Shown one piece after another: positions 4,389-19,693 of a stretch of DNA of 64,000 nt. A program made the translations under genes and the position numbers. Every line of letters begins with the position of its first letter. Position 1 is the stretch's first letter. The notes under the pieces were generated by a model. The model did not search any database. It was not told the origin of the DNA and saw only the letters and a program-made list of their open reading frames with translations. Source of the stretch: Herbiconiux moechotypicola (GTDB lineage: Bacteria; Actinomycetota; Actinomycetes; Actinomycetales; Microbacteriaceae); NCBI RefSeq assembly GCF_024979255.1, contig NZ_JANLCN010000001.1, positions 186,001 to 250,000 of the forward strand, written 5' to 3'.

Positions 4389-4852
4389 CGTGTACCCCAG
4401 TTGTAGAGCTGTTTGTGCAGTTTCAGATAGACGAAGGTCTCGGTGGACTGGACCCCGTCGAGTCGCCTGATCTCCGAATTGAGAAGGGCGATGAGGTCGT
4501 CATCGTCTTCGCAGACGACTTCGGCCAGGATGTCGAAGGTGCCCGCGGTGAGCACCACGTAGTCGACCGCCGGCATGCGCGCGAGGGCATCGGCCACCTC
4601 GCGGGTGTCTCCCGACACCTTGAGCCCGATCATCGCCTGGCGGTAGAAACCGAGCTGCAGCGGGTCGGTCACGGCCACGATCTGCATCACGCCCGCTTCG
4701 GTGAGCTTCTGCACCCGTTGCCGCACCGCGGCCTCGCTCAAGCCGACCGCTTTGCCGATCTCGGCGTACGAGCGGCGCCCGTCGTCTTGCAGCTGCTCGA
4801 TGATCGCCTTCGACGTGTCGTCGAGCTGCGCAGGGCGAGGAGAGGACTTCAT
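4385..4852 (-). CDS. Lrp/AsnC-family transcriptional regulator
   Basis: 155 residues with the two-part Lrp layout: an N-terminal winged helix (LDDTSKAIIEQLQDDGRRSYAEIGKAVG followed by SEAAVRQRVQKL, residues ~10-55) and a C-terminal RAM ligand-binding domain (residues ~65-150; VVLTAGTFDILAEVVCED). Lrp proteins form octamers that sense amino acids or amines and usually control the adjacent gene. It is the first gene of the aminotransferase/oxidase operon and overlaps the next start by four bases, so autoregulation of the whole operon in response to an amine or amino acid is likely. Confidence 0.93.
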   Translation of the reverse strand: MKSSPRPAQLDDTSKAIIEQLQDDGRRSYAEIGKAVGLSEAAVRQRVQKLTEAGVMQIVAVTDPLQLGFYRQAMIGLKVSGDTREVADALARMPAVDYVVLTAGTFDILAEVVCEDDDDLIALLNSEIRRLDGVQSTETFVYLKLHKQLYNWGTR

Positions 4853-4858
4853 CTCTCG

Positions 4859-4887
4859 ATTTTGTCAGGATGACTGGCCGGCGGCAA
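4859..4887 (-). promoter_or_regulatory. Leaderless promoter of the AsnC operon
   Basis: Read on the minus strand: TTGCCG (4887-4882), a 17-base spacer, CAAAAT (4864-4859), six bases, then the ATG at 4852. This is the only promoter in the window with both hexamers recognisable at ideal spacing. Transcription should begin at or next to the start codon. Confidence 0.6.
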
Positions 4888-4989
4888 GCGATTCCGTCGG
4901 AGATGGGCTCTCAGGGTGCTGAAATCAGCAGTAGGGGAGCCGTCGCACCGCGTGCTTGCGCCCGGCTCCGTGCTCGGGGCCGGGTGGCG

Positions 4990-4995
4990 TAGGGT
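4990..4995 (+). promoter_or_regulatory. -10 box of the kinase operon
   Basis: TAGGGT lies six bases before the ATG at 5002, the spacing expected of a leaderless transcript. No convincing -35 hexamer is visible. It would drive the eight-gene operon 5002-19467. Confidence 0.5.
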
Positions 4996-5001
4996 GAGCG
5001 G

Positions 5002-5910
5002 ATGGCCGGGCGCGCTCAGGACGCAGAACGCGATCCATGGCGGGCGGTGGCGAGCGGCCGTTTCCTCGTGATCGTCGACGCCGGGGTCTCTGAGGAGGTG
5101 TGGCAGGGCGTCTGCGCCACGGTCGAAGTCGAATCGCTCCCCGAGAACATCGGTCCCGCCGGCCAGGTGCACACCGGAGGCCTGGAGAGGATCGTGTCCG
5201 CCATCCCGGTGCGGGGTGTCGACGCCGTCGACCACTTCGCCGTGGTCGAGCTGCCGCCCGCCCGCGACGGCGTCGCCGTCGACGAGCCCGGTGCCCGCAC
5301 GGTCATGGTGGTGGCGCGGGGCGGCGCCGAGGTGGAACTCCTGCTCGACAGCGGCGCCCACCGGCACACGGCCCGCGGCGCCGAACCGTGGTCGCTGGCC
5401 GAGTTCCCCCGCGTGCGGGCGGTCAGAGCGGGCCCGACGGGCTGGAGCGCCGGCACGATCCGTGCTCGTCACGACGGGGATCGGGGCCACGAACCCGTCA
5501 CCACAGCGGGCGAGCCCGGCACGACGCCCGCGCCCGCCTTCACGGTACGGGTGAACGACGGGCCCCTCGAGCCCCTCCGGCGGCCGCTCGTCGTCGGCCG
5601 TCGGCCCCGTGCCCTGCTCTCGGCGCCGCACTCCCGTGCCGAGACGCCCACCGACCTGCGCGCCGTGACTTCTCCTGCACAGCTCGTGTCGGCCACCCAC
5701 GTCGAGATCGCCCCGAGCGGTGACGTCGTGGTGGTGACCGACCTCGGATCGACCAACGGAACCCGCGTCGTTCCGGGGCACGGAACCCCGGTGCGACTGC
5801 GAAAGGGGGATTCTGCGGTCGTGCCGGTGTCGGCTATCGTCGAGATCGGAGACGGCAACGTCATCCACATCCTCCCGTCGGGGCCGGACGGGTTCACGAA
5901 GCCCGTCTAG
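5002..5910 (+). CDS. FHA-domain protein, first gene of the kinase operon
   Basis: 302 residues. The C-terminal part (~190-290) is a forkhead-associated domain: RPLVVGRRPR, SATHVEI and the signature DLGSTNGTRV, the loops that bind phosphothreonine. The N-terminal ~170 residues (GRFLVIVDAGVSEEVWQGVCATVEVES...) have no domain that I recognise; they look like alternating strands and may be operon-specific. No membrane segment is seen. As first gene of an operon with a kinase and phosphatase, it probably reads out phosphorylation by the kinase at 6732. A second FHA protein closes the operon at 18733. Confidence 0.85.
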   Translation: MAGRAQDAERDPWRAVASGRFLVIVDAGVSEEVWQGVCATVEVESLPENIGPAGQVHTGGLERIVSAIPVRGVDAVDHFAVVELPPARDGVAVDEPGARTVMVVARGGAEVELLLDSGAHRHTARGAEPWSLAEFPRVRAVRAGPTGWSAGTIRARHDGDRGHEPVTTAGEPGTTPAPAFTVRVNDGPLEPLRRPLVVGRRPRALLSAPHSRAETPTDLRAVTSPAQLVSATHVEIAPSGDVVVVTDLGSTNGTRVVPGHGTPVRLRKGDSAVVPVSAIVEIGDGNVIHILPSGPDGFTKPV

Positions 5911-5942
5911 TATTCCCGAAAAGCTGTCAGGAGTTGGTCATC

Positions 5943-6728
5943 GTGACCCAGATCGGTCGAACGAACGCGCGGGTGCGCTTGGAGGGCCCGGGCGCCCGGG
6001 GCGCCGCCGTGGTGCTGTCGTGGTCGGCCGTCTCCCACACCGGCAACAGGCGCACCGCCAACGAGGACAGCTCGCTCTCCGAGCCTCCGGTCTTCGCCGT
6101 GGCCGACGGGATGGGGGGGCACTCCGCGGGCGACGTCGCGAGTGCCGCCGTGGTCGGGCGGCTCTCCGCCATCACCGGTGCGCGCACCGACGCCGACACC
6201 ATCGAGGCCGCGCTCGAGCTGGCGCTGGCCGACATCGACCGGGTGGGCGACGAGTCGGTGCTCGGCACCGGCACCACGGTCACGGGTGCCGCCCTCAGCG
6301 AGCTGGAGGGAGAGCTCGGCTGGCTGGTCTTCAACATCGGCGACTCCCGCACCTATCTCTACGAGCACGGCGCCCTCCAGCAGCTGACGGTCGACCACTC
6401 CGTGGTGCAGGAACTGGTCGACGCGGGCCTCATCACCCGTGAGCAGGCCGAGACCCACCCCGACAGCAACGTCATCACCCGCGCCGTCGGCTTCCACGAG
6501 AAGCCCGTGCCCGATTACGGCACCGTCGCACTCGCCACGGGTCAGCGGCTCCTGCTGTGCTCCGACGGGCTCACGAAGGAGCTCACCGAGGTGGGCATCC
6601 AGCACTACCTCGCCACCACCGACACCGCCGATCGTGCCGCCGTCGAACTCGTCACCGCGGCGCTGGCCAACGGCGGCCGTGACAACATCACCGTGGTGGT
6701 GGTCGACGTCGAGGCCGCCGACGACTGA
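5943..6728 (+). CDS. PP2C-family Ser/Thr phosphatase
   Basis: 261 residues with all PP2C motifs: SHTGNRRTANEDS near the N-terminus, ADGMGGHSAG with metal-binding D55, NIGDSRTYLY, LLLCSDGLTKEL and GGRDNITVVVVD. Metal-dependent phosphatases of this type dephosphorylate the partner Ser/Thr kinase and its substrates. The GTG at 5943 was preferred over a TTG at 5934 because AGGAG at 5929-5933 lies nine bases before it, while it would abut the TTG. It sits between the FHA gene and the kinase gene, only three bases before the latter. Confidence 0.93.
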   Translation: MTQIGRTNARVRLEGPGARGAAVVLSWSAVSHTGNRRTANEDSSLSEPPVFAVADGMGGHSAGDVASAAVVGRLSAITGARTDADTIEAALELALADIDRVGDESVLGTGTTVTGAALSELEGELGWLVFNIGDSRTYLYEHGALQQLTVDHSVVQELVDAGLITREQAETHPDSNVITRAVGFHEKPVPDYGTVALATGQRLLLCSDGLTKELTEVGIQHYLATTDTADRAAVELVTAALANGGRDNITVVVVDVEAADD

Positions 6729-6731
6729 ACG

Positions 6732-8063
6732 ATGGCCCGGCGTCTCCCCTCCGCTCCACCCGCACTGCCCGGGTTCACGCCCGTCCGTGTGCTCGGTTCG
6801 GGGGGCTTCGCCGACGTCTTCCTCTTCGAGCAGAACCTCCCCAGGCGTTTCGTGGCCGTGAAGGTGGTCGTGCCCGAGGTCGTCGACGACCAGGTTCGGC
6901 GCATGTTCCGGTCGGAGGCCGACCTGATGGCCGGTCTCAGCGCACATCCCTCCGTGCTCACCGTGTACGAGGCCGGGGTCTCCTCCGACGGTCGCCCGTA
7001 CCTCGTCACGGAACTCTGCTCCTCGTCGCTCGGCGACGGCTATCGCAGCCGACCGCTGCCGGTGGCGGATGTGCTGCGCATCGGCGTGCGCGTCGGCGGT
7101 GCCCTGCACGCGGCCCACTACCAGGGCGTGCTCCACCGCGACGTCAAGCCCTCGAACATCCTCATCACCGCCTTCGGGGCCCCGGTGCTCGGCGACTTCG
7201 GTGTCGCCTCCACCATGAAGGGCCGCGCGGGGGGAACGGGGGCCGGCCTGTCGATCCCCTGGTCGGCACCCGAGGTGGTCGACGAGTCGACGCCGGGTAC
7301 GGTCGCCTCCGAGGTGTGGTCGCTCGGAGCCACGCTCTACTCCCTGCTGGCCGGGCGCAGCCCGTTCGAACGACCCGGGTCGGCGCCGGGCGAGCTCGCC
7401 CGGCGCGTGCGGTCGGCCCGCCTGCCCGCACTGGGTCGCGACGACGTGCCGGCGTCGCTGGAGCGGGTGCTCTCCCGCAGCATGGCGAAAGACCCGGCGA
7501 GACGTCAGGCCGACGTGGCGCAGCTGGTGCATGAGCTCCAGGCCGTCGAGGCGGAGCTGGGGCTCACCCCTACGCCGGCCGAGCTGGCCCCGGCCGCGTG
7601 GGCCGGGGAGTACGCGCGCGACCCCGACGACCGCACGCGCATCGCCCCGGCGACGTCCTCGGCGCAGGGAGGGGGAGGCGCGGGCGCCGGGCGATCCGGG
7701 AGCACGACCCGCCGGCGCACGGTCACGGTTCTGGTCGCGGGAGCAGCGGCGCTCGCCGTCGTCGCGGTGGCGGGGCTCGCCGGTCTCACGCTCGGGCGCC
7801 AGTCGTCGTCGACGGCGCCGGCCGTCGGCGAGATCCGGACCGTCGAGTCGGGAGAGGGCGTGCGCTTCGAATGGGCCGACCCGGGACTGGCTGCCGGTGA
7901 CAGCTACCGGGTGACCACGTCGACGGGCGGCACCTCGGTGCAGCAGTCAGCCGAGTTCGTGGTGCATCCCGCCCCAGGTCAGCGCATCTGCATCACCGTC
8001 GCAGTGGTGAGAGCCGGCCGGGCAGGCGAACCGAGCTCGCCCGGCTGCACGGAGGGTTCGTGA
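6732..8063 (+). CDS. Transmembrane Ser/Thr protein kinase with Fn3-like ectodomain
   Basis: 443 residues. The kinase domain (~15-275) is complete: glycine loop LGSGGFADVF, catalytic K44 (VAVKVV), HRDVKPSN with D137, DFG at 155-157 and SAPEVV. A linker follows, then one membrane segment (~330-352) and an ectodomain of about 90 residues (EWADPGLAAGDSYRVTTSTGG) that resembles a fibronectin type III fold. There are no PASTA repeats, so it is not the cell-wall-sensing PknB orthologue. The ectodomain may contact the Ig/Fn3 surface protein encoded immediately downstream, whose GTG start overlaps this stop by four bases. Confidence 0.93.
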   Translation: MARRLPSAPPALPGFTPVRVLGSGGFADVFLFEQNLPRRFVAVKVVVPEVVDDQVRRMFRSEADLMAGLSAHPSVLTVYEAGVSSDGRPYLVTELCSSSLGDGYRSRPLPVADVLRIGVRVGGALHAAHYQGVLHRDVKPSNILITAFGAPVLGDFGVASTMKGRAGGTGAGLSIPWSAPEVVDESTPGTVASEVWSLGATLYSLLAGRSPFERPGSAPGELARRVRSARLPALGRDDVPASLERVLSRSMAKDPARRQADVAQLVHELQAVEAELGLTPTPAELAPAAWAGEYARDPDDRTRIAPATSSAQGGGGAGAGRSGSTTRRRTVTVLVAGAAALAVVAVAGLAGLTLGRQSSSTAPAVGEIRTVESGEGVRFEWADPGLAAGDSYRVTTSTGGTSVQQSAEFVVHPAPGQRICITVAVVRAGRAGEPSSPGCTEGS

Positions 8064-11000
8064 CCGTCGCGGGCCCTGGCCGGCCCCGGTCCCCGCGACC
8101 GGCCAGGCGTCTTCGCGCGGTCGCCGTGGTGGCCGTGGTGGCGGTGGTGGCGGGTATCTCGGCCGGTGCGGCGCTCGCCGACGGCTACGCCGGTGCCCGG
8201 GTGCAGCCCGACGACGCGGCGATCTGGGTGAGCAGCGCCGTGCACCAGTCCGTCGCGCGTGCCAACACGCTCGTGGGCGAACTCGACACGGCGGTGCGCA
8301 TGGGGTCGTCGTCGCTCACCGTCGCCCAGTCGGGGCGCACGGTCGTCATCGGCGACCTGGGCGCGGGCGAGGCCAGACTTCTCGATCCTGCGACGGCCGA
8401 GGTTCTCGTCGCGGCGCCGTTGCCGAGCGGAACCGACCGGGTCGAGCTCCAGGGGGGCACGATCGTCATGTCGTCTCGGTCCACGGGCGACGTCTGGGCG
8501 GTCGAGGTCGGCGCGCTCGCCTCCTTCGACGCGACGACCACCCCGACCCTTGCTCTCGGTGCGGGCGGTGCGGCGAGCGTGAGCGAAGACGGCTCGATCG
8601 TCGCCGTGTCGCCCTCGGCCGGCGCGGTCTACACGCTTCCCCAGGGATCGAGGGGGGTGGCAGCCGGCTCGGCGGCGATCGACCTGCAGCCCGACGCCGA
8701 CGTCGAGATCGCCGCGGTGGGCGAGAGCTGGGCGGTGCTCGACCGTACCGTGCCGAGAGTGCTCCTCCCGAACGCCGTCGCCCCTCTCGACGCCGTGGAC
8801 GATCCCGCCACGGCGCGGCTGCAGGAGTCGGGGGAGTCGTCGGGGGCGGTGCTCGTGGCCACGTCGAGCGGGTTGCTCGGCGTCGGGCGCGACGGCGCGG
8901 TGGAACGCCTCGCCGACGGCGACGGTCCTCCGGCGGCTCCGACGTGGGTGGGCGGATGCGCGTACGCGGCCTGGAGCGGTTCCGGATACTGGACGGGGTG
9001 CGAGGGCGAGCCGGCCCGCAGCGGCGGGCTCGACGGGCTGTCGTCGAGCTCCCGGCTGGTGTTCGACGGCGACGGGGGTGAACGCCTGCTCGTCTCCGAC
9101 ACGGTCACCGGGCGCAGCTGGGACCTCGCCCGCGCGGGCGCCGTCATCGACGACTGGGAGCCGCTCGTGGCCGCGGCGGCCGACGACGACGCCGCGGGCA
9201 CCACGATCGCCGACCGTGCCGACGAGCTCGACCCCGATCAGCGGCCGCCGGTGGCGGCCGACGACCGGTTCGGGGCTCGACCGGGTCGCGCGACGGTGCT
9301 GCCGGTGCTCCAGAACGACTACGACCCCAACGGCGACGTGATCGTGATCGATGCGGTACAGGTGGCCGATGATGCCGACTACTCCGTCGGCATCGTCTCG
9401 GACCGCCAGCGGCTGCTGGTGACGCTGCCGTCGACCGCGAGCGGCACTCTCGCGCTCGGCTACACCGTCTCCGACGGGCACGGGGGAAGTGCGTCGGCCA
9501 CCGTCTCGGTCGAGGTGCGGACCGACTCCGAGAACTCCCCACCGGTGCAGGTGCGCCAGCGCACGATCGACGTCGTCAGCGGGGGCCGGGCAGAGGTCTC
9601 CGCGCTCTCCGACTGGTACGACCCCGACGGCGACCCGATCGTCGTGCGCACGGCATCGGCGGGGTCGCCCGGTTCGATCGCGGTCGGCCCCGACGGATCG
9701 ATCACGGTGCTCGATCCCGGAATCGAGACAGGCACCTCGCCGGCGGTGATCGTCGTCTCCGACGGAGTCTCCGACACCACGGGCACGGTGTGGATCTCCT
9801 CCACCGCTCCGGAAGACGCGCCCCTGCTCGCCGAGGGCTTCGCCGTCGCCGCGCGCGTGGGCGAGGCAGTGACGCTGTCGCCGCTGGCGCACGTCACCGG
9901 TGCGTCGGGCGGCCTGAGGCTCGGTTCGCTCACCGCGCGGGAGGGCGCGGTGCAGCCCGACTTCCTCACCGGAACGGGGGAGTTCACCCCGGCGAGCGCC
10001 GGCACCACCCTGCTCGAGTACTCCGTGGCCGACGGCGCGCGCTCGGCCTCCGGCGTGATCCGGGTGGTGGCCGAGCCTGCCGCCGAGGCGGGCGCGGCGC
10101 CCGTCACGCTGCCGCACGCCGCCGTGGTGCGCGCGGGCGGCAGCGTCGACGTCGACGTGCTCGCCCTCGACAGCGACCCGGCGGGCGGGGTGCTCCTGGT
10201 CGAGGGCGAGCTCGACGTGCCGGCACCGTATCGGGCCGAGGTGCTCGACCGCCGCACCGTGCGCATCGTGCTCGAGGGCCCGGACCCCGAGGAGTCGGCA
10301 GGGTCGGGCCGCAGCGTCGTGGGCTATCGCGTCACCAACGGCGTGGCCTCCACGGCGGGGACCATCTCCGTCATGGAGGTCTCGGCCGGTGCGACCGCGC
10401 CACCACCGGTGGCGCGCGACGATCGGGCCTCGGTGCGGGCGGGCGACGTGGTCGACATCCCGGTGCTCGCCAACGACCTCCACCCCTTCGGCGACCCGCT
10501 CACCCTCGACCCGGTGCTCCCGAGGAGCCTCGCCTCCGACGCCGGACTGCTCTTCGTGTCGGGGGACCGGCTGCGCTACCTGGCCCCGGGCACTCCGGGC
10601 GACTACACCGCTCTCTACCGGGTCGACGCGCCCGACGGACAGTGGGCGACCGGTTCGGTGACGATCACGGTGCGGGAGGCCGACCTCGACAGCAACAGCC
10701 CGCCGCGGCCCGGGGGGATCGTCGCGCGGGTGGCGGCCGGCGAGACCGTGCGCATCCCGGTCGACCTCGAGGGCGTCGACCCCGACGGCGACTCCGTGCA
10801 GTTCCTCGGTGCGGACTCCGCCCCGGGCAAGGGTGCCGTCACCGATTTCGGTGACGACTGGATGGAGTACACGGCGGGCGAGTATTCCACCGGCACCGAC
10901 CGGTTCGACTACGCCGTGGTCGACCGTCTCGGTGCCCGGGCGGTCGGGATTGCGCGGGTGGGCATCGCCCCCCGAACCGACGACGGCCCCGGAGCGCCCG

Positions 11001-14000
11001 TGGTGGTCGCCGACGAGGTGAGCACCCGGCCCGCGCGCACGGTGCTCGTGCCGGTGCTCGCCAACGACTCCGATCCCGAGGGCGGAGCGCTGAGCGTGGT
11101 GGGGGTCGAGCCGATCGATCCCGGTCAATCGGCGCTCGCCCGCGTGGAGGGCGATCTCGTGGCGGTCGAGGTGCCATCCGCCGAGCACCGGTCGGCGTTC
11201 GTCTACACCGTCTCCGACGATCGGGGTGCGGAGGCCACCGGCGTGCTGATCGTCGATGCGCGCAGCGACGCACCGCTCGCGAGGCCCGTGGTGAGCGACA
11301 CGGTCGTTCCGGTGGAGCAGGTGATGGAGGCCGAGGACGGTGTGATCGACGTCGACGTCCTCCGTTCGGTGTTCTTCGCGGAGGGCGAGGTGAGCCGGCT
11401 GTGGCTCTCGGTCGATCCGGGTTCGGCGCGGGTCGCGCGGGTGGCCGACGGCCGGGTTCGGGTGCAGGTGGCCGACGGACAGCAGATCATCCCGTTCACG
11501 GTCGCCCACCCCGACGATCCCAACGTGCGCTCGAGCGGGTTCGTCTGGGTGCCCGGCCGCGCCGACGCGCTGCCGCAGCGCCGCGTCGACGCCCCCGCCC
11601 TGCGGGTGCGATCGGGCGAGCCGCTCACGATCGAGCTGGCCGACCAGATCGTCGTGGCGGGGGGTGGGAGGCCGGTCGTGGCCGACCGGAGCTCGGTGCG
11701 GGCGACGCACTCCGACGGCGGATCGCTCGTCGTCGACGATGACACCCTCGGTTTCCGCAGTGCCGACGGCTACTTCGGCCCGGCATCGATCTCGGTGGAG
11801 GTGGCCGACGGCACCGGCGGCGACGCCAGGGTCTCGACGATCGTACTGGGCATCACGGTGACCCCGGCCGTCGACCAGCCGCCCCGGTTCGAGGGCGCTG
11901 TGGTCGAGCTGGAGCCGGGGCAGGCCCGTACTCTCGATCTCGTCCGGCTCACCTCCACTCCCGTGGGCACCAGCCCGCCCTCCGGCTTCTCGTTGCTCGA
12001 GCCCGCCTCCGGTGGCTTCACCGCGATGCTGGTGGGCTCGAGGCTCACGCTCACCGCGGCCGACGGCGCCGGCAGAGGTGACTCGGGCTCGTTCACGATC
12101 GGGGTGTCCTCCGCGGCGAGCGCGGGTCGCTCCGGCCGGGTCGAGGTCTCGGTGGTCTCCTCCACCCGGCCGAAGGCGGTGGCCGTCGCCGACACCGTCG
12201 TCGCACCGCGAGGGCGGACCACCAGCATCGACCTGCTCGCCAACGACGCCGCCGGCAATCCGTTCCCCGCGACCCCGCTCCGCCTCGTCGCCGTCCGGGG
12301 GGCCGAGGCCGGCCGGCTTCCCGACGGCGTCCAGGTCGTGCCACGGGGGGAGACGGGCGTGCTCGACGTCACCGTCTCGGCCGACGCGCCCGCAGCCGAC
12401 CTGGCCCTGCACTATCAGGTGCTCGACGCCACCGGCGCGAGCGACCGTGCCGTCTGGGGCTCGGTCTCCGTGAGCGTGCAGGATCGCCCGGAGCCGGTGC
12501 GCTCCGTGGCGGTGACCGGGTTCGGTGACCGAACCCTCACTGTGGCGATCGCTCCGGGTGCGGCACGCAACTCGCCCATCTCGGTGTTCGAGGTCACGGC
12601 CCGCACGCCGTCGGGGGATTCCGTGACCACGGAGTGCGCCAGCACGGTGTGCACGGTCGGCACTCCGGGGAACGGACCGACCGCGGCGGCCACGGTCTCG
12701 GTCTCCGCGCGCAACGCGGTCGGGCTGTCCGACCCGGTGGTGTACGGCTCCGCCGTGTGGAGCGACCTGCTGCCCTCCGTTCCCGTGGCCCTCACCGCCG
12801 CACCGGCCAACGGTACGCTGCTCGCACGATGGTCGCCGAGCACGGTGCCGGCCGGAGGCTCCGCCGTGCAGGAGTACACGGTGTCGGTGGACGGCAGGGC
12901 CCAGTCCACCGTTCCGGCCTCGTCGTGCGAGGCATCGGGCTGCTCCACCGTCATCACCGGGCTCTCGAACGGCACCTCCACCTCGATCGTGATCGGGGCG
13001 CGCAACGGAGCGTACCCGGCGCTCTCCAGCTGGCCCACCGCATCCGTCACCGCCACGCCCTACGGGGCGCCGCGGGCCGGCACGGCCACCGCGGTCGTCG
13101 ATCCCGCAGGGGCGCCCGGCAGCCTCACCGTGGTGTGGCCGGGATTCGAGGGCAACGGAGACCCGGTGTCGGGTTACGTCGTGCAACTGCTCGCACCGGG
13201 CACGACCGCTGTGCCCGGTGGCGCCCAGGCGTGCTCGGTCACGGCGCCCGCTCCCGGCTCCGTGGTCGAGCCCGTGGTGGGCTCCGCCGTGCTCGATCAG
13301 CGGGTTCTCGGTGCGGGAGCCGGGAGTGCCGTGTTCACCGGACTCGACCTCGTCGGTGCGGCCTACCCGGTGGTGGTGTGGGGTCACAACCGCGCGGGAT
13401 GCACGCCGAGCGCCCTCACGACGGCCGTCGTGCTGCCACGACCTGGGCCGGTCGACACCGGCGCCGTGCAGGTCGACATGGTGGTCGAGGGCACGGCGCT
13501 CGAGCCGCGGCTCGTCGCGGCGCCCGCGCCGTCGACCGTCCCCACCACGCGATACCGCGTGCAGCGGGTCGCCGAGGACGGGTCTCCGTTCGGACCGAGC
13601 GCTTCGCTCGCGCTCGGTGAGCTGCCACGCCTGCGCACGGGAGGGGAGTTCGGCGCGCCGTACCGGTTCGTGGTGCAGGCCTGCACCACGTGGAACGGCG
13701 TCGAGGCCTGCGGCGATCCGTCGGGTCCTGTGACCGCACCCGAGCCGAGTCTCACCTTCGCACCCGCAGCCGGCCCCTCCTTCGCGGCAGGGATGTGGCG
13801 CTGGAGCGGGGCGCCCGACAACGGTGACCTCCCGGCGATCTTCACCTGCGGGCCCGACGGCGCGACGCCCTCCCGCGACGTGGTGCCCGAATCGCTCACG
13901 AGCACCACGTGCACACCGGCCGGCTCCACGGGAGGCCCGCCGGGCGGCGACGGCCCGGCCTGGCTGCTCGTCGCCGTCGGCGGCCGCGACTTCGTCTATC

Positions 14001-14017
14001 GTGACCCAGGGGATTGA
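8060..14017 (+). CDS. Giant secreted/anchored Ig-like and Fn3 repeat protein
   Basis: 1985 residues, the largest gene here. An Arg-rich N-terminus followed by a hydrophobic run (AVAVVAVVAVVAGISAGAALA, ~21-41) acts as signal or membrane anchor. Residues ~60-390 are strand-rich with no named domain, perhaps propeller-like. Residues ~395-1470 hold about eleven cadherin/Ig-like repeats of ~98 residues, best seen in PVLQNDYDPNGD, PVLANDLHPFGD, PVDLEGVDPDGD and PVLANDSDPEGG. Three to four Fn3-like domains (~1475-1880) and a C-terminal tail with cysteines follow. No LPXTG or C-terminal anchor is present. It starts with GTG overlapping the kinase stop (GTGA). It is presumably the surface effector or receptor of this operon. 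Confidence 0.88.
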   Translation: MTVAGPGRPRSPRPARRLRAVAVVAVVAVVAGISAGAALADGYAGARVQPDDAAIWVSSAVHQSVARANTLVGELDTAVRMGSSSLTVAQSGRTVVIGDLGAGEARLLDPATAEVLVAAPLPSGTDRVELQGGTIVMSSRSTGDVWAVEVGALASFDATTTPTLALGAGGAASVSEDGSIVAVSPSAGAVYTLPQGSRGVAAGSAAIDLQPDADVEIAAVGESWAVLDRTVPRVLLPNAVAPLDAVDDPATARLQESGESSGAVLVATSSGLLGVGRDGAVERLADGDGPPAAPTWVGGCAYAAWSGSGYWTGCEGEPARSGGLDGLSSSSRLVFDGDGGERLLVSDTVTGRSWDLARAGAVIDDWEPLVAAAADDDAAGTTIADRADELDPDQRPPVAADDRFGARPGRATVLPVLQNDYDPNGDVIVIDAVQVADDADYSVGIVSDRQRLLVTLPSTASGTLALGYTVSDGHGGSASATVSVEVRTDSENSPPVQVRQRTIDVVSGGRAEVSALSDWYDPDGDPIVVRTASAGSPGSIAVGPDGSITVLDPGIETGTSPAVIVVSDGVSDTTGTVWISSTAPEDAPLLAEGFAVAARVGEAVTLSPLAHVTGASGGLRLGSLTAREGAVQPDFLTGTGEFTPASAGTTLLEYSVADGARSASGVIRVVAEPAAEAGAAPVTLPHAAVVRAGGSVDVDVLALDSDPAGGVLLVEGELDVPAPYRAEVLDRRTVRIVLEGPDPEESAGSGRSVVGYRVTNGVASTAGTISVMEVSAGATAPPPVARDDRASVRAGDVVDIPVLANDLHPFGDPLTLDPVLPRSLASDAGLLFVSGDRLRYLAPGTPGDYTALYRVDAPDGQWATGSVTITVREADLDSNSPPRPGGIVARVAAGETVRIPVDLEGVDPDGDSVQFLGADSAPGKGAVTDFGDDWMEYTAGEYSTGTDRFDYAVVDRLGARAVGIARVGIAPRTDDGPGAPVVVADEVSTRPARTVLVPVLANDSDPEGGALSVVGVEPIDPGQSALARVEGDLVAVEVPSAEHRSAFVYTVSDDRGAEATGVLIVDARSDAPLARPVVSDTVVPVEQVMEAEDGVIDVDVLRSVFFAEGEVSRLWLSVDPGSARVARVADGRVRVQVADGQQIIPFTVAHPDDPNVRSSGFVWVPGRADALPQRRVDAPALRVRSGEPLTIELADQIVVAGGGRPVVADRSSVRATHSDGGSLVVDDDTLGFRSADGYFGPASISVEVADGTGGDARVSTIVLGITVTPAVDQPPRFEGAVVELEPGQARTLDLVRLTSTPVGTSPPSGFSLLEPASGGFTAMLVGSRLTLTAADGAGRGDSGSFTIGVSSAASAGRSGRVEVSVVSSTRPKAVAVADTVVAPRGRTTSIDLLANDAAGNPFPATPLRLVAVRGAEAGRLPDGVQVVPRGETGVLDVTVSADAPAADLALHYQVLDATGASDRAVWGSVSVSVQDRPEPVRSVAVTGFGDRTLTVAIAPGAARNSPISVFEVTARTPSGDSVTTECASTVCTVGTPGNGPTAAATVSVSARNAVGLSDPVVYGSAVWSDLLPSVPVALTAAPANGTLLARWSPSTVPAGGSAVQEYTVSVDGRAQSTVPASSCEASGCSTVITGLSNGTSTSIVIGARNGAYPALSSWPTASVTATPYGAPRAGTATAVVDPAGAPGSLTVVWPGFEGNGDPVSGYVVQLLAPGTTAVPGGAQACSVTAPAPGSVVEPVVGSAVLDQRVLGAGAGSAVFTGLDLVGAAYPVVVWGHNRAGCTPSALTTAVVLPRPGPVDTGAVQVDMVVEGTALEPRLVAAPAPSTVPTTRYRVQRVAEDGSPFGPSASLALGELPRLRTGGEFGAPYRFVVQACTTWNGVEACGDPSGPVTAPEPSLTFAPAAGPSFAAGMWRWSGAPDNGDLPAIFTCGPDGATPSRDVVPESLTSTTCTPAGSTGGPPGGDGPAWLLVAVGGRDFVYRDPGD
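9241..12480 (+). repeat. Eleven ~98-residue Ig/cadherin-like protein repeats
   Basis: The core strand of each repeat begins near residues 412, 512, 601, 698, 801, 899, 999, 1094, 1187, 1290 and 1391 of the giant protein, a mean spacing of about 98 residues (294 bases). The acidic DxDPxGD loop, which typically binds calcium, is intact in repeats 1, 2 and 6, partial in 4, 5 and 7, and lost in the others. DNA identity between repeats is low, so the duplications are old. Confidence 0.75.
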
Positions 14018-14026
14018 GGACACACC

Positions 14027-15004
14027 ATGACCACCACCATGACGGCCGAGCAGGCCGGTAGGTTCGCCGACGTCGTCGAACGGCTCGCCGAGAACGTCTC
14101 GCATGCCGTGCAGGGCAAACCCCACGTCGTGCGGCTCGCTCTGGTGACCCTCCTCACCGGAGGGCACCTGCTACTCGAAGACGCCCCCGGCACCGGGAAG
14201 ACCTCGCTGGCCCGCGCCCTGGCCCAGAGCGTGCGCTCGACCACCTCACGCATCCAGTTCACCCCCGACCTGCTGCCCGGCGACATCACCGGCGTGAGCG
14301 TGTTGGACCAGGGCACAGGCCGCTTCGTCTTCCACCCGGGACCGGTGTTCGCGAGCATCGTGCTCGCCGACGAGATCAACCGCGCGTCGCCCAAGACCCA
14401 GTCGGCTCTCCTCGAGGTGATGGAGGAGGGGCGGGTGACCGTCGACGGGGTCTCGCATCCCGTCGGCGAGCCGTTTCTCGTGGTGGCCACCCAGAACCCC
14501 ATCGAGCAGGCCGGCACACACCGCCTCCCCGAGGCGCAGCTCGACCGGTTCCTCATCAAGACCTCGATCGGCTACCCCGACCACGCGACCACCCTGCGCA
14601 TCCTCGAGTCGGCCGCCGAGCCCCCGCACAGCGACCCCCTGCCCTCCATCGTCACCCCGGAAGGCGTCCTCCTCCTCATGGCCGAGGCACGCACGGTGCA
14701 CGTCGAGGCCGCCGTCAACGACTACGTCTCCCGGCTCGTCCAGGCCACTCGCGACGCCCCTGAGACGAGGCTCGGAGCCAGTGTGCGCGCGGCTCTCGGC
14801 CTCGTGCGCGCTGCGAAGACGTACGCCGCCTCGTCGGGCCGGCACTACGTGGTGCCCGACGACGTGAAGGCGCTCGCCGTGCCGGTGCTCGCGCACCGTC
14901 TCGTGCTCGACCCCGAGGCGGAGTTCGACGGAGCCACGTCCGAGGGCGTGGTGGCACGCGCGCTGCTCGACGTGGCCCCGCCCGGGGGCGTCGCCCAGGC
15001 ATGA
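14027..15004 (+). CDS. MoxR-family AAA+ ATPase
   Basis: 325 residues. Walker A EDAPGTGKTSLAR (~49-61), Walker B IVLADEIN, sensor stretch ATQNPIEQAGTHRLPEAQLD with the arginine-finger region and the C-terminal lid are all present, giving a normal-length MoxR. MoxR ATPases are chaperones that usually act with a von Willebrand-type or DUF58 partner, encoded here directly downstream with a four-base overlap (ATGA). TGAGGA nine to ten bases before the ATG serves as ribosome binding site. In this operon it probably assembles or remodels the membrane complex of DUF58, transglutaminase-like and Ig/Fn3 proteins. Confidence 0.95.
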   Translation: MTTTMTAEQAGRFADVVERLAENVSHAVQGKPHVVRLALVTLLTGGHLLLEDAPGTGKTSLARALAQSVRSTTSRIQFTPDLLPGDITGVSVLDQGTGRFVFHPGPVFASIVLADEINRASPKTQSALLEVMEEGRVTVDGVSHPVGEPFLVVATQNPIEQAGTHRLPEAQLDRFLIKTSIGYPDHATTLRILESAAEPPHSDPLPSIVTPEGVLLLMAEARTVHVEAAVNDYVSRLVQATRDAPETRLGASVRAALGLVRAAKTYAASSGRHYVVPDDVKALAVPVLAHRLVLDPEAEFDGATSEGVVARALLDVAPPGGVAQA

Positions 15005-16290
15005 GCACCGGGGAGACCGACAGCACCGAGACCACCGGGCGCACGGCGCGCACCGGGCCTGCCGCGCCGCCCGCCACCACCGGGCCTGCCGCGCCGCCCG
15101 CCACGACCGGTGCGCGCATCGTGGTGAGCCCGGCGGGCTGGTGCGTCGCGGCGACCGCGGCCGTGGGGCTCGTGACGGGTGTCCTCTTCGGCTGGACCGA
15201 ACTGTTCGTCGCGGGAGTCATCTGCGCCCTCGTCGCCCTGGTCTCGGGCCTGTTCCTGCTCGGAGGCACTCCGGTGCAGATCGGGCTGGAGCCTCCGCCG
15301 TCGGAGGTGACCGTCGGAGCGGAGGCGGTCGCGCTGATCACGGTCTCCAACCCCTCGCGCCTCCGGGTTCGCCCCGGAGTGCTCGAGGTGGACATCGACG
15401 GCTCGCGTGTGCCCCTCGTCGTCGGCGCACTCGAAGGGCACGCCACGGTGCGATCGCCGCAACGCGTTCCCACAGGACGCCGGGGAGTGGTGACCCTGGG
15501 CCCGGTCACGGCCATCACGGGCGACCCCCTCGGGCTGGTGCGGCGCGAGGCGGCGAGGTCGGGCACGATCGACGTCGTCGTGCGGCCGGTCACGGTGGCG
15601 CTGGGGAGCGTCGCCCCCGGGCTGTTGCGCGACCTCGAGGGGCTGCCCTCGTCGGTGCTCACCGACAGCGACCTCTCGTTCCACGCGCTGCGGCCGTACA
15701 CCCGGGGAGACGACCTGAGGCACATCCACTGGCGCAGCAGCGCCAAGAGCGGCACGTTCCTGGTGCGCCAGTTCGAGGAGACCAGGCGCAGTCACGTTCT
15801 CGTGCTGCTCGCCACGGCGCCGCACGACCACGCCGACGACGAGGAGTTCGAGCTGGCCGTGAGCACCGCCGCCTCGCTCGGAGTGCGGGCGCTGGCCGAA
15901 GAGACGAGGGTGAGCGTGTTCGCGCCCCGCGCCACCGCCGGCGGTCGGGAGCGGCTCGGACGACTCCGTGGTCACGCGCGCTCCGCGCTGCTCGACGACC
16001 TCGGGCGCGTCACGCGCGCCGAGGGCGCCCCGGGTCTCGAGCGCGTGGCCGGGGAGATCGCCCGGGAGGCCGCCGACGCCTCCGTCGTCTTCGTCTGTGC
16101 CGGTTCGACCGCGAGCGCGGCCCAGCTGCGCGCCGTGTCGGCGATGCTGCCGTCAGGGGCCGAGGTCGTCGCCGTGGTGGCCCGCCCCGCGAGCCCCGGG
16201 CGAGCGGCACGGATGGGGCGGCTGCGCATCCTGAACCTCGGCCGGCTCGCCGAGTTGCCGAGGATGCTCGTGCGGGCGGTCGGACTGTGA
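15001..16290 (+). CDS. DUF58 membrane protein
   Basis: 429 residues. A disordered Thr/Pro/Ala-rich N-terminus contains a nine-residue direct repeat (TGPAAPPAT twice; DNA copies begin at 15051 and 15078). Two membrane segments (~43-90) come next, then a beta-rich region and the DUF58 signature LRPYTRGDDLRHIHWRSSAK (~230-249), followed by a vWA-like half with LVLLATAP. DUF58 proteins are standard partners of MoxR ATPases. Its start overlaps the moxR stop and its own stop overlaps the next gene (GTGA), which argues for fixed stoichiometry. Confidence 0.93.
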   Translation: MSTGETDSTETTGRTARTGPAAPPATTGPAAPPATTGARIVVSPAGWCVAATAAVGLVTGVLFGWTELFVAGVICALVALVSGLFLLGGTPVQIGLEPPPSEVTVGAEAVALITVSNPSRLRVRPGVLEVDIDGSRVPLVVGALEGHATVRSPQRVPTGRRGVVTLGPVTAITGDPLGLVRREAARSGTIDVVVRPVTVALGSVAPGLLRDLEGLPSSVLTDSDLSFHALRPYTRGDDLRHIHWRSSAKSGTFLVRQFEETRRSHVLVLLATAPHDHADDEEFELAVSTAASLGVRALAEETRVSVFAPRATAGGRERLGRLRGHARSALLDDLGRVTRAEGAPGLERVAGEIAREAADASVVFVCAGSTASAAQLRAVSAMLPSGAEVVAVVARPASPGRAARMGRLRILNLGRLAELPRMLVRAVGL

Positions 16291-18728
16291 GCACGGCGAC
16301 GACGCTCCTCCGGGCGGCCGGCGCGATGCTGCTCACGGTCGTCGCGGCGTTCGCGTGGTGGCCGGTGCACGCCGACGGCGCCTTCGTGCTGCTCGTCTGC
16401 GTGACGGCACCCGCGGCGTCGGCGCTCGCTCTGCTCGCCCGCGTGCGGAGCTGGCCGGCCGTTGCGCTCGGCGGTGCCGGGGTGGCCCTGTGGCTGGTTC
16501 TCGGGGTGCCTCTCGCGGTGCCGTCGCTGGCCCTGGGCAGGGTGCTGCCCACGCCCGAGGGCCTCTTCGAGCTGGCCGCCGGGCTGATCGAGGGGTGGCG
16601 CGGGCTGCTCACCATCGCGCTGCCGGTCGGCGACTACCAGGCGCTGCTCGTGCCGGTGTTCACGCTGGTGCTGGTGAGCGCGCTGATCGCGACCGGTGCG
16701 GCGTTGTCGGAGCGGTGGGCGGTGCTGGCGGTGGTGCCGCCGGCGGCGGTGCTCGTGGAGGGAACGGCCTTCGGAGCATCCGTCGGTCCTGCGCCGGCCG
16801 CCCAGGTCGGGCTGGGAGCAGTGTTCGGCGTGCTGGTGGTGGTGTGGGCCGCTTGGACGGGGACGGCGCGGCGGGGGAACGGATCGGCTCCCGCCGCTCG
16901 GCGGTCGGGCCGGAGGCCAAGGGCGGTGCCGACCGTCGCCGTGGTGGTGGCCGGGGCGGGCGTGGTGGCCGTCGTGGCCGGGCTGTGGTTCTCCGCCGGT
17001 CCGGGCGCCGTGCGGGTCGTCGCGCGCGACGCCGTGGAACCGGGATTCGATGCCGCGGCCATGCCGAGCCCGCTGTCGTCGTTCCGGGCGGGGTTCGTGG
17101 CCGACCGCGCCGAGGCCGTGGAGTTCATGGTGTCGGGGGTGCCGGCGGGCACCAGACTGGCGGTCGCGCGGCTCGACGAGTTCGACGGCGTCGTCTTCCG
17201 GGTGTCCGACGACGACGGACTGGAGCGTGTGACCGGGGCGATCGGCGTCGCTCCTCCAGGTGGATCGACCACCTCGGAAGGCTCCTCCACGGCCGCATCG
17301 TCCTCCTCCTCCGCCGCGATGGCGGTGCAGGTCGAGGACTACACCGGAGCCTTCGTGCCGACCGCGGGCACGCCGGAGGAGGTGCGCTTCACGGGCGAGC
17401 GCGCCCAGAGCCTCCAGAACGGTGTCTACAGCGATTCCGAGCTCGCCACCGTCGCCGTCGCCGTCCCGCTCGGTTCCGGGGACGGCTACACCCTGGTCTA
17501 CTCACCGGCCGAGCGGGCCGCTCCGGTGGGCCGTGAGCTCGCCACCCTCACTCCGGGGATGCCGGGAGCGACCGATCCGGGCACTCCCGACGACTCGGTG
17601 GTTCCGGCCGCCGTGGGCGCCCGCCTGGCCGAATGGGCACCCGCCGACGCGGCACCGGGTCTCCGCCTCGAGGGCATCGTCGCCGGGTTGCGGTCGGGGT
17701 ACGTCTCCCACGGGCAGGCGGGTGAGCCCGCCAGCCGCTCCGGTCACAGCACGGCACGGCTGCAGCAGCTGCTCACCGACTCCCCGATGCTCGGCGATGC
17801 CGAGCAGTACGCGGCAGCGGGCGCACTCCTGGCACGCGCCGCGGGATTTCCCGCGCGCGTGGTGGTGGGGTATGTGGTGCCCCGACCGGGTGAGGAGGGA
17901 GACGTGCCGGGCGGGACGGTCGCCGGGGAGGGGGCGGCGACGGATGCGCGCGGCGCGGCGACGGATGCGAGCGGTGCGGCGATGGATGCGAGCGGTGCGG
18001 CGACGGATGCGCGCAGTGCGGCGACCGCGGCGATCGCGGTGCGGGGGCGTGACACCGCCGCGTGGGTCGAGGTGCTCACCCATGAGCAAGGCTGGGTGAC
18101 CCTCGACGTGACTCCCGAGAGTCGTCCTGTTCCCCCCGCCGTCGCCGAGGACGACCCGATCGCGGTCGAGCCGCCCCGCATCGTCGACCCCGCGCCGGAG
18201 CCGGCCGACCGCGGCACCGAACCGTCGGTGACCGCGACCGAGAACGACGACGACTCCCCGCTCCCGCAGACGGAGCCCTGGTGGGGGATCGCGGCCGTCG
18301 TCGCCGGCACCGTTGTCGCGCTGCTGCTGGTCGCCGCGATTCCCTTCATGGTGATCCTTCTGATGAAGCGCGCGAGACGTCGACGTCGGCACCGCGCCCC
18401 GCCGCGCGCCAGTGCCGCTGGGGCGTGGGACGAGCTGATCGACTCGGCGCGCGACCACGGCCTCCCTCCGCCACCGAGGGCGACCCGCCGCGAGAGCGCC
18501 CTTGTGCTGGCCGGCGACTCCGGCGGCGTGCGGCTCGCCGAACGCGTCGACGCCGCAGTGTTCGCTCCCGAGGTGCCCCGGGCCGAGCAGGTCGACGAGC
18601 TCTGGCAGGCCTCCGACCGGGAGCGCCGCGCGCTCGGAGAACATCGATCGCGGTGGGGGCGGCTGAGGGCGGCGCTCTCGACCCGGTCGTTGCGCACGTA
18701 TCATGGCACAGACACGAGAAACGGATAG
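16287..18728 (+). CDS. Transglutaminase-like membrane protein, apparently catalytically dead
   Basis: 813 residues with the TgpA-type layout: several N-terminal membrane segments (within ~1-245), an exported region, a transglutaminase-like core (~480-612), one further membrane segment (~667-690) and an Arg-rich cytoplasmic tail. In the core, the motif GDAEQYAAAGALLARAAGFP has Ala505 where active enzymes carry the nucleophilic Cys, and TAAWVEVL has Ala591 where the His is expected; Asp607 (TLDVTP) remains. Two of three catalytic residues are therefore missing, so a binding or structural role is likelier than crosslinking. A 7-residue repeat (~550-577) is inserted just before the degenerate His motif. 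Confidence 0.87.
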   Translation: MSTATTLLRAAGAMLLTVVAAFAWWPVHADGAFVLLVCVTAPAASALALLARVRSWPAVALGGAGVALWLVLGVPLAVPSLALGRVLPTPEGLFELAAGLIEGWRGLLTIALPVGDYQALLVPVFTLVLVSALIATGAALSERWAVLAVVPPAAVLVEGTAFGASVGPAPAAQVGLGAVFGVLVVVWAAWTGTARRGNGSAPAARRSGRRPRAVPTVAVVVAGAGVVAVVAGLWFSAGPGAVRVVARDAVEPGFDAAAMPSPLSSFRAGFVADRAEAVEFMVSGVPAGTRLAVARLDEFDGVVFRVSDDDGLERVTGAIGVAPPGGSTTSEGSSTAASSSSSAAMAVQVEDYTGAFVPTAGTPEEVRFTGERAQSLQNGVYSDSELATVAVAVPLGSGDGYTLVYSPAERAAPVGRELATLTPGMPGATDPGTPDDSVVPAAVGARLAEWAPADAAPGLRLEGIVAGLRSGYVSHGQAGEPASRSGHSTARLQQLLTDSPMLGDAEQYAAAGALLARAAGFPARVVVGYVVPRPGEEGDVPGGTVAGEGAATDARGAATDASGAAMDASGAATDARSAATAAIAVRGRDTAAWVEVLTHEQGWVTLDVTPESRPVPPAVAEDDPIAVEPPRIVDPAPEPADRGTEPSVTATENDDDSPLPQTEPWWGIAAVVAGTVVALLLVAAIPFMVILLMKRARRRRRHRAPPRASAAGAWDELIDSARDHGLPPPPRATRRESALVLAGDSGGVRLAERVDAAVFAPEVPRAEQVDELWQASDRERRALGEHRSRWGRLRAALSTRSLRTYHGTDTRNG
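17934..18017 (+). repeat. In-frame 21-base tandem repeat in the transglutaminase-like gene
   Basis: Four copies of a 21-base unit start at 17934, 17955, 17976 and 17997, with a decaying fifth copy. Each encodes a seven-residue Ala-rich block of the type AATDARG. The unit length is a multiple of three, so copy changes keep the frame. Confidence 0.85.
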
Positions 18729-18732
18729 ACCA

Positions 18733-19467
18733 GTGAAGTGCAGAACCTGCGGCACGTCTCTGACCGCCGGAGCCCTGCTCTGCGGCGAGTGCGGAACCTC
18801 CGTCATCGCCCCTCGTCCCACCCTCGGCGACACCGCCCACCATGACCGGGCCGCCCTCCGCGCTGCTCTGCGCCGGCCCGCCCCTGCCGCGCCGGTGGCA
18901 CCGCCCGCCGCCGTGACCCCACCCGCTCCCGCGCCCGCACCGCAGGCGCCCGCCGTACCTGGGGTGCCCGCCGAACCGCAGTCGCCCGCACCGCAGGCGT
19001 CCCCCGCGCCGCAGGCGCCCGCCGCACCTGGGGTGCCCACCACCATCACCACCCGACGCGCCGCCCGGGCCGCGGCCCGCGCATCCGCACCCACCCCCCG
19101 CGACGACCGCGCCGTGCACCACCTCCGCTTCAGCACGGGCGAGAGCATCCGCGTCGCAGGCTCCGGCCTCGTGGGCCGCAGCCCGTCGCCCGCCGACGGT
19201 GAGACCCTCGACTACCTCGTGCAACTCGTCGACCCTGCACGCAGCGTCTCCAAGACCCACCTCGAGTTCGCCGTCGACGGCGACGACTTCTGGGTCCGTG
19301 ACCGCGACTCGACGAACGGCACCCGAGTGCTCCCGCCCGTCGCAGGTGACCAGGGCGGCACGACGCCCCCCGGCACCACACCCCTCGATCTCGCCCCCGG
19401 CACCTGGCACCGCATCCCGCGCGGCACCCGAGTCGAACTCGGCGACCAATGGTTCGATCTCTCCTGA
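18733..19467 (+). CDS. Zinc-ribbon FHA-domain protein, last gene of the kinase operon
   Basis: 244 residues from the GTG at 18733, four bases after the preceding stop; an in-frame ATG at 18703 would overlap that gene and is less likely because the zinc ribbon (CRTC...CGEC) starts right at the GTG. A Pro/Ala-rich low-complexity linker (~55-105) leads to a C-terminal FHA domain (~130-244) with VGRSPSP, SVSKTHLEF and DRDSTNGTRV. FHA domains bind phosphothreonine, so it is a likely substrate or reader of the operon's kinase. This layout recalls GarA-like FHA adaptors but with a zinc ribbon in place of the phosphorylated tail. Confidence 0.87.
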   Translation: MKCRTCGTSLTAGALLCGECGTSVIAPRPTLGDTAHHDRAALRAALRRPAPAAPVAPPAAVTPPAPAPAPQAPAVPGVPAEPQSPAPQASPAPQAPAAPGVPTTITTRRAARAAARASAPTPRDDRAVHHLRFSTGESIRVAGSGLVGRSPSPADGETLDYLVQLVDPARSVSKTHLEFAVDGDDFWVRDRDSTNGTRVLPPVAGDQGGTTPPGTTPLDLAPGTWHRIPRGTRVELGDQWFDLS

Positions 19468-19500
19468 GACCTCCTGAGACCTCCTGAACCCCCCTGAGAC
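19461..19500 (+). repeat. 10-base tandem repeat containing a stop codon
   Basis: Four copies of CTCCTGAGAC (the third and fourth diverged) run from 19461 to 19500. The first copy contains the TGA that ends the FHA gene; the others extend the intergenic region. Confidence 0.9.
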
Positions 19501-19535
19501 CTTCGCGCCTCGTCTGAGCCTTCACCACCCCACCG

Positions 19536-19582
19536 ACGAAATCGAAGGTCATTCCACCGTTTCGGCACGGATTTCGTAAAGT
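19536..19582 (+). promoter_or_regulatory. Inverted repeat and possible promoter upstream of the polyamine transporter
   Basis: ACGAAATC (19536-19543) is repeated inverted as GATTTCGT (19570-19577), centre to centre 34 bases, in an AT-richer pocket. TAAAGT (19577-19582) could be a -10 box. An operator for an amine-responsive regulator, such as the AsnC protein at 4385, is possible but unproven. Confidence 0.35.
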
Positions 19583-19618
19583 CTTTGTTTCAGAATGGCT
19601 ACTTTCGCCGTTCGTGCT

Positions 19619-19671: not shown

Positions 19672-19693
19672 AGACCAGAGGAGACAGCGAGAG

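Follow-up and report, generated by a model that had tools for sequence, protein, structure and literature searches.

The closest described relative of the locus reported here is the PFNA operon of bifidobacteria (pkb2, fn3, aaa-atp, duf58, tgm, prpC, a hypothetical gene and fha), which the literature presents as a channel of communication with the host immune system (PMC8430577, PMC10688814) and states to be "found only in bifidobacteria" (PMC10688814) and "unique to bifidobacteria" (PMC8430577). The operon's co-transcription has been published for Bifidobacterium longum GT15, and the B. longum kinase Pkb2 phosphorylates the operon's MoxR, a member of a group of ATPases described as chaperones that remodel protein complexes (PMC8430577). 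The tgm product appears in print as a transglutaminase-like enzyme or a presumed cysteine protease (PMC8430577, PMC10688814). Here, we analyze an eight-gene operon at positions 5002-19467 (+ strand) of a 64,000-nucleotide stretch from Herbiconiux moechotypicola (Microbacteriaceae; assembly GCF_024979255.1, contig NZ_JANLCN010000001.1, positions 186,001 to 250,000), hereafter the window. Its genes encode two FHA proteins, a PP2C phosphatase, a Ser/Thr kinase, a giant surface protein, a MoxR ATPase, a DUF58 protein and a TgpA-like membrane protein with a transglutaminase fold (TGL). Judged by sequence, this is almost certainly a PFNA-type operon that forms one family with bifidobacterial PFNA. 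Its TGL is very probably a pseudoenzyme that has lost transglutaminase catalysis, and its giant protein is predicted to start with an unannotated beta-propeller. The PFNA operon was known before in bifidobacteria, and the pseudoenzyme status is a new result; among the listings and excerpts from open-access literature searches there was no report of TGL Cys loss or of a wider distribution of PFNA.

The window and bifidobacterial PFNA share a five-gene core in the same order (kinase, giant protein, MoxR, DUF58, TGL), with PP2C and FHA genes as accessories in both. The giant proteins are also alike in layout, with 1994 amino acids in B. longum GT15 and 1985 here, and Fn3 pairs at residues 1494-1671 and 1476-1677, respectively. 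In the window, unlike PFNA, an FHA gene and the PP2C gene lie ahead of the kinase, with another FHA gene after the TGL. Furthermore, the source genome is not bifidobacterial by its family placement, it holds two copies, and the residue at the dead TGL site is Ala, rather than the Ser of most bifidobacteria. A first-pass annotation of the DNA had noted the resemblance to PFNA, and gene order, giant-protein layout and the named Bifidobacterium loci all agree with it. It had also called the role of PFNA unknown; in print, however, Pkb2 phosphorylates MoxR and FN3 fragments bind TNF-alpha (PMC8430577, PMC10688814).

Relatives of the operon were collected in several sets. A TgpA_N profile search of 80 genomes of the same family returned two TGL score classes, and 20 loci were fetched from the lower-scoring class. 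Class and order sets were found via profiles of the giant protein's N-terminal domain. Loci were chosen by hand among the listed matches: 20 from the family, 26 plus six from large genomes in the class draw, 20 plus 40 in the order draw, and 20 in the phylum draw. The named set came from a TGL pattern scan of named genomes, which gave at least 593 matches, at least 580 of them confirmed; the best 80 of these were used. This pattern fixes GDxEQYA and leaves the Cys place free, so the named set is biased on the flanks (Asp504, Glu506, Gln507).

PFNA-type operons are widespread in the order. The N-terminal profile of the giant protein matched 141 of 248 order-draw genomes, from 47 of 86 genera (E 1e-6 or better). 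In the class draw, 50 of 197 genomes matched, many via the Ig repeats only, and at least 18 of the listed genomes matched along the N-terminal domain. The best 80 named loci are mostly from Bifidobacterium, with others from Cellulomonas, Actinotalea, Georgenia, Jonesia, Sanguibacter, Microbacterium and a few uncultured records. Profiles derived from the window together with related loci match kinase, giant protein, MoxR, DUF58 and TGL in order in the Bifidobacterium loci; one small-genome family of the order draw has sequences identical to named Bifidobacterium records. The published restriction of PFNA to bifidobacteria therefore does not hold, and we drop "Bifidobacterium only" as a defining feature. 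Viral contigs gave two pattern matches and no relative.

Gene order is strongly conserved. Counting the eight profiles only, the giant-MoxR-DUF58-TGL core is consecutive on one strand in 134 of 142 annotated TGL loci (20 family, 24 class, 18 order, 80 named), which argues against a chance arrangement, and the kinase lies directly ahead of the core in 112. Within the family set, the core is ordered in 20/20 loci, with the kinase directly before it in 18. Open frames are at most 100 bases apart in 129 of 137 giant-MoxR pairs, 136/138 MoxR-DUF58 pairs, 139/141 DUF58-TGL pairs and 92/118 kinase-giant pairs. The PP2C and FHA genes are mobile, lying ahead of the kinase, past the TGL or in divergent orientation. 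In six loci (L100, L103, L104, L106, L107 and L108), the kinase, often with an FHA gene, is divergent from the core and still adjoins it. The genes are thus not scattered in relatives, and the proposal that they make one conserved unit holds, as does its description as a surface module combined with a signaling module of kinase, phosphatase and FHA proteins.

The operon TGLs have lost the catalytic Cys. In the window, the catalytic Cys is replaced by Ala505 and the catalytic His by Ala, and the third triad residue, Asp, is kept. We read 187 operon TGLs: the window's own, 20 from the family, 24 from the class, 18 from the order, 80 named, four from large genomes, two from the phylum and 38 of the 40 further order loci. 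These include seven pairs of one record fetched twice, leaving 180 distinct copies; the TGL was unread in L096, L109, L115, L116, L138, L141 and L272, and one further of the 40 order loci was unaligned. The Cys is absent from all 187 (180 distinct), with D, S, A, E, G or Q in its place, and the triad His is lost in 156. Among 48 TgpA-type relatives taken as active controls (30 same-family paralogues and 18 from across the phylum), both residues are kept in every one. The first-pass annotation had listed a "transglutaminase-like" member; the fold stands, but the catalytic Cys is gone from every copy read. Thus, the TGL most likely binds or holds rather than cross-links, and the published view of it as a transglutaminase-like enzyme or cysteine protease is unlikely on these sequences.

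Loss of the catalytic residues is coupled to the presence of the propeller gene. The 30 control paralogues all belong to MoxR-DUF58-TGL sets for which ~20 kb of sequence gave neither a propeller nor a kinase match, and the 18 phylum controls have no propeller match within stretches of 12-20 kb (12-15 kb on four contigs). By contrast, 20/20 family loci have the propeller, and of the named 80 only L168, L189 and L201 are without a match to it, both sets having been found via the TGL; L127 is a further operon-set locus without a propeller match. In a tree of 108 TGLs, one branch (SH-aLRT 99) splits 81 dead from 27 active copies, so a single loss suffices to explain the data. The most distant operon copies are those of L225, L224 and four large genomes.

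The dead site is itself conserved, with the consensus GH(x3)R...G[DN]xEQ[YF]A. Gly486, His487 and Arg491 are each present in 137/137 rows of one alignment. Across the 187 operon TGLs, His487 is found in 186, Arg491 in 182, Glu506 in 187 and Gln507 in 186, and the only copies with neither Asp nor Asn at 504 are five of the most distant. The named 80 add nothing new on 504, 506 and 507, since their search pattern requires GDxEQYA. In 48/48 active controls, positions 491 and 504 hold other residues; in 44/48, position 487 is something other than His or falls in a gap. Only His487, Arg491 and Asp504 count as operon-specific, because Glu506 and Gln507 are shared with active relatives; these two are probably inherited. 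We infer that the dead site is maintained for binding and is not decaying. A general decay of the operon's enzymes is argued against by the Walker A motif, kept in 139/139 MoxR open reading frames (ORFs), and by DG[MV]GG, kept in 79/79 PP2C ORFs examined. Patterns for Walker B (1/139), sensor 1 (8/139) and HRD + DFG (64/91) were too strict or fell on cut ORFs and were unused.

Other described systems share parts of this machinery. TgpA/DUF3488 proteins of MoxR-DUF58-TgpA operons (P. aeruginosa TgpA, 6g49) have the same TgpA_N part, transglutaminase fold and MoxR-DUF58 neighbors, and P. aeruginosa TgpA shows transglutaminase activity (PMC3507681). The model of the window's TGL domain (pLDDT 80) matches the TgpA periplasmic domain 6g4h (Foldseek E 1.4e-12, TM 0.69 by target length). 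Operon TGLs differ in always lacking the Cys and mostly the His, in an extra GH(x3)R, in their separate tree branch and in having a propeller protein, and in most cases a kinase, as neighbors. The MoxR-vWA-beta-propeller ternary systems (bpMoxR; Kaur et al. 2020, PMC7159879) likewise combine a MoxR ATPase with a propeller protein, and the MoxR of the window reaches 33.3 bits against Pfam bpMoxR (cut-off 27). It fits AAA_3 far better, however, at 199.7 bits; its partner is a DUF58 protein in which Pfam finds no vWA family, and its propeller is predicted to be external and membrane-anchored. The word DUF58 is absent from the main text of PMC7159879. RavA-ViaA and the mycobacterial moxR1-DUF58-vWA operons, which pair MoxR with a DUF58 or vWA partner, have already been compared with PFNA (PMC12067865); the propeller, giant rod and pseudo-transglutaminase of the window operon go unmentioned for them in the excerpts of that source. 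Inactive proteins with a transglutaminase or related fold, such as human EPB42, Rad4 and menin, have likewise lost catalysis and serve in binding or scaffolding (PMC10318531); they are eukaryotic, with no MoxR or kinase operon, and set a precedent by analogy only.

All eight ORFs of the window operon are open, with no internal stops, at the positions and with the three 4-base overlaps first proposed. The features are as follows.

5002..5910, + strand: FHA1, an N-terminal region of unknown kind and an FHA domain at residues 226-270 (Pfam FHA E 8.4e-6)
5934..6728, + strand: PP2C Ser/Thr phosphatase of the Stp1 type, TTG start (Pfam PP2C_2 6e-9; DGMGG and DNIT motifs kept)
6732..8063, + strand: Ser/Thr kinase (Pfam Pkinase 1.7e-35), catalytic domain at residues 17-259, single hydrophobic helix, C-terminal Fn3-like domain
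7815..8060, + strand: putative external Fn3-like sensor of the kinase, with a conserved Trp and two Cys (profile matches)
8060..14017, + strand: giant membrane-anchored surface protein, GTG start, 1985 amino acids
8183..9244, + strand: predicted N-terminal beta-propeller of the giant protein, residues 42-395 (AlphaFold2 model, Foldseek, weak profile match)
9245..12470, + strand: Ig-like (Big_9 / cadherin-like) repeats of the giant protein, residues ~396-1470 (Big_9 1.1e-59 across the protein)
12485..13090, + strand: Fn3 pair region of the giant protein, residues 1476-1677 (homologous alignment columns)
14027..15004, + strand: MoxR AAA+ ATPase (Pfam AAA_3 1.9e-59; Walker A GTGKT kept)
15001..16290, + strand: DUF58 protein with N-terminal hydrophobic segments (Pfam DUF58 9e-10)
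16287..18728, + strand: TGL, GTG start (TgpA_N 1.1e-10, Transglut_core 2.3e-11), predicted ectodomain at residues ~243-652
17742..17759, + strand: TGL site GH(x3)R, comprising Gly486, His487 and Arg491, conserved in alignments
17793..17813, + strand: dead nucleophile site GDAEQYA of the TGL, Ala505 standing where active relatives have Cys
18057..18062, + strand: place of the lost catalytic His of the TGL, an Ala preceding Ala-Trp
18703..19467, + strand: FHA2, C-terminal FHA domain (Pfam 1e-5) and N-terminal zinc-ribbon-like CxxC...CxxC

Besides the overlaps of four bases, the junctions comprise gaps of 23, 3 and 9 bases and a TGL/FHA2 overlap of 26 bases. A scan of 4300-19800 found only one terminator-like site, at 4840-4857, and none inside 5002-19467 (mean of shuffles 2.2). 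The operon is bounded at 5002-19467, as the first-pass annotation had it, because the flanking genes belong to other systems. Upstream, on the opposite strand, lies a gene for a class-III aminotransferase, and an ABC transporter begins 127 bases past FHA2. The transporter genes (19595-23840, same strand) encode an extracellular solute-binding protein and two permeases. Pfam backs the gene names proposed earlier, but makes no fn3 call in the giant protein of the window. Two assignments fall under a cut-off: the PP2C matches NCBIfam Stp1 at E 9e-61 with a score under that model's own cut-off, and FHA2 matches Zn_Ribbon_1 at 5.9e-4, under the family cut-off.

The kinase keeps its VAVK, HRD and DFG motifs, and its external part is probably a single Fn3-like domain. 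We aligned the window's kinase with those of 25 of 28 extracted loci, leaving out L046 (cut), L207 (same organism as L135) and L088. W381, C420 and C439 are invariant in the 26 aligned kinases; the L088 ectodomain, outside the alignment, has the two Cys and not the Trp. The ectodomain profile matches Fn3 domains in the PDB (best 3lpw, 1.7e-6) and, weakly, the Fn3 region of the giant protein (hhalign probability 84%, E 7.4e-6). Pfam fn3 is called in no kinase ectodomain, and this part of the kinase is described in print as highly variable.

The giant protein is 30-52% identical to its 20 same-family relatives. The earlier description of it as a repeat protein missed the N-terminal propeller. 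No Pfam model names this domain. Its AlphaFold2 model is all-beta (pLDDT 90.4, pTM 0.87) and matches WD40/YncE/NHL/PQQ propellers in Foldseek (viral structure library), and its profile weakly matches designed Pizza propellers (E 0.016). Big_9-type repeats occur in 21/21 aligned giant proteins and Pfam fn3 is called in 18 of these, the window's own not among them. No conserved phosphosite was seen in the cytosolic N-tail among the rows inspected of a 135-row alignment. Locus L111 (genome G256) has a minimal version, with the propeller alone in a 435-amino acid frame followed by MoxR, DUF58 and TGL; G312 has a similar frame of 457 amino acids in the order-draw listing. In four large-genome loci (L112-L114, L117), the neighbor of MoxR-DUF58-TGL is a 786-1163-amino acid protein that matches the propeller in part, and the Cys place of the TGL is Ser. 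Since short propeller forms adjoin MoxR-DUF58-TGL, the long Ig/Fn3 rod looks like an elaboration of a propeller-MoxR-DUF58-TGL core.

Taken together, we modestly favor a reading in which the PFNA-type operon encodes a phosphorylation-controlled membrane machine for assembling, displaying or latching a giant rod on the cell surface. The giant protein would be held by an N-terminal helix anchor, with its propeller beside the membrane and its Ig-like repeats and Fn3 domains facing outward. The polytopic TGL would expose an external, non-catalytic domain that acts as receptor or latch; its most likely ligand would be the propeller protein or a wall peptide, bound through a repurposed site of His487, Arg491, Asp504, Glu506 and Gln507. 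MoxR, with DUF58 as its membrane adaptor, would drive ATP-dependent remodeling of a presumed TGL/propeller complex. The kinase may read the outside through its Fn3-like domain and phosphorylate MoxR, as reported for B. longum; PP2C would reverse this phosphorylation, and the two FHA proteins would bind the phosphosites. Because the propeller accompanies the TGL and, in B. longum, the kinase phosphorylates MoxR, we propose the TGL as receptor or latch of the propeller rod, with MoxR gated by kinase, PP2C and FHA. This latch mechanism is tentative, somewhat short of an even chance. A broader proposal, put forward with similar reserve, is a pan-actinobacterial class of envelope machines: a MoxR-associated transglutaminase would have lost catalysis once on coupling to a membrane-proximal propeller, its active site (Gly-His, Arg, Asp, Glu-Gln) rebuilt as a ligand or latch pocket. 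Kinase and MoxR ATP would then control the rod via the pseudoenzyme receptor, and the bifidobacterial immune-sensing operon would be a late, specialized branch.

Several observations weigh against this regulated-rod interpretation. The association between the operon's proteins is something we infer, and His487, Arg491, Asp504, Glu506 and Gln507 are read as one pocket from their sequence positions. The triad His is retained in 31 of the 187 dead copies, and five distant dead copies lack both Asp/Asn504 and Arg491. His487 is also found in 4/18 active phylum relatives, and active relatives with GYCEQFA share Glu506 and Gln507. Most Bifidobacterium copies have Ser where the Cys would be, so serine chemistry keeps a formal chance there. 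Finally, B. longum data on TNF-alpha binding and on induction by it agree with host sensing in that genus.

That last point is the basis of a different explanation, in which the operon evolved for cytokine binding and dialogue with an animal host. TNF-alpha is bound by FN3 fragments in vitro and increases the expression of PFNA in B. longum GT15 (PMC10688814, PMC12607495). As a general function, however, host sensing is already contradicted by distribution: the operon's diagnostic giant protein is matched in the 141 order genomes given above. Named carriers include Cellulomonas, Actinotalea, Georgenia, Jonesia, Sanguibacter and Microbacterium, which are mostly free-living genera. Dozens of listed order-draw genomes, moreover, have two to four giant-protein matches, which may include fragments. 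We regard host sensing as the least probable origin; since the operon is not confined to bifidobacteria, a cytokine role could only be a later addition. Hardly more probable is a TGL that is still an enzyme, through a substituted nucleophile or new His/Glu chemistry. His487 and Glu506 are nearly invariant beside the old site, and the Cys place is Ser in 55/77 named copies, mostly of Bifidobacterium; yet the window and 13/20 copies of its family have Ala there, other copies have Gln, Gly, Asp or Glu, and most copies (156/187) have also lost the triad His.

Two further explanations keep the non-catalytic TGL and assign the operon another purpose. In one, the rod would not be a product for display: it would cross the wall, with kinase and pseudo-TGL sensing the condition of the wall and setting envelope synthesis. 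The related TgpA is an essential protein of P. aeruginosa with a suggested role at the wall (PMC3507681), the kinase sensor and the pseudo-TGL are both predicted to face outward, and the operon is widespread in the order. Against this, 107 of 248 order genomes have no match, which does not suit essential housekeeping, and Pfam recognizes no wall-binding domain in the operon's proteins; we consider this explanation unlikely, though it is the strongest of the rivals. The other makes the rod a regulated adhesin or biofilm component, with pseudo-TGL and MoxR as its export or folding factors. It draws on the Ig/Fn3 architecture and on a report that FN3 mediates adhesion in B. bifidum S17 (cited in PMC12607495). 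The 435-amino acid form of L111 suggests that a long rod is not part of the shared core, and the propeller-like proteins of L112-L114 and L117 suggest likewise, on their length and with their Ig repeats unscanned. We therefore rate an adhesin a little lower still.

The bifidobacteria-only statement is thus contradicted directly, and the immune-line role becomes at most a genus-specific addition. The non-catalytic conserved site and the propeller are clear targets for study, and the function of the operon is open to study in easy non-host actinobacteria.

Two other candidate signals were set aside. Loss of the DUF58 metal site (MIDAS; ATA in the window, DT in relatives) was dropped, having been ruled out by same-family control DUF58 proteins that also lack the full DxSxS and by operon copies that keep the Asp. 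In the cytosolic tail of the TGL, T733 is Thr in 126/137 and S798 is Ser in 115/137 copies. They were dropped as phosphosites, as T733 may be structural, and sites for the kinase or FHA proteins are possible only; a TPRE stretch like that at T733 is presumably also found in active TgpA tails.

The genome of the window holds a second PFNA-type copy on contig C12 (62.3-78.7 kb), ordered giant-MoxR-DUF58-TGL-FHA-PP2C-FHA-kinase. This copy (L086/L118) is diverged, and its TGL keeps the triad His, with Asp at the Cys place. The same genome also has a canonical TGL paralogue that carries the Cys (G000:C1, ~411.6-413.4 kb). In the TGL tree, L220 (Microbacterium sp. SD291) is sister to L093 of the window's family, with a 77% match over 5.1 kb. 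Two family members (L290, L311) have a canonical propeller-free MoxR operon with two TGL and two DUF58 genes in tandem. The propeller-like gene of L112, L113 and L117 is divergent from MoxR-DUF58-TGL, with Leu for His as well as Ser for Cys in the TGL, and L112 and L113 have a PASTA-type kinase nearby. The rod gene is also duplicated inside the operon: two giant propeller-Ig genes stand head to tail ahead of MoxR in L141 (G346:C1 1423331-1443330), and paired giant matches lie ~6 kb apart in G425, G427, G465 and G307.

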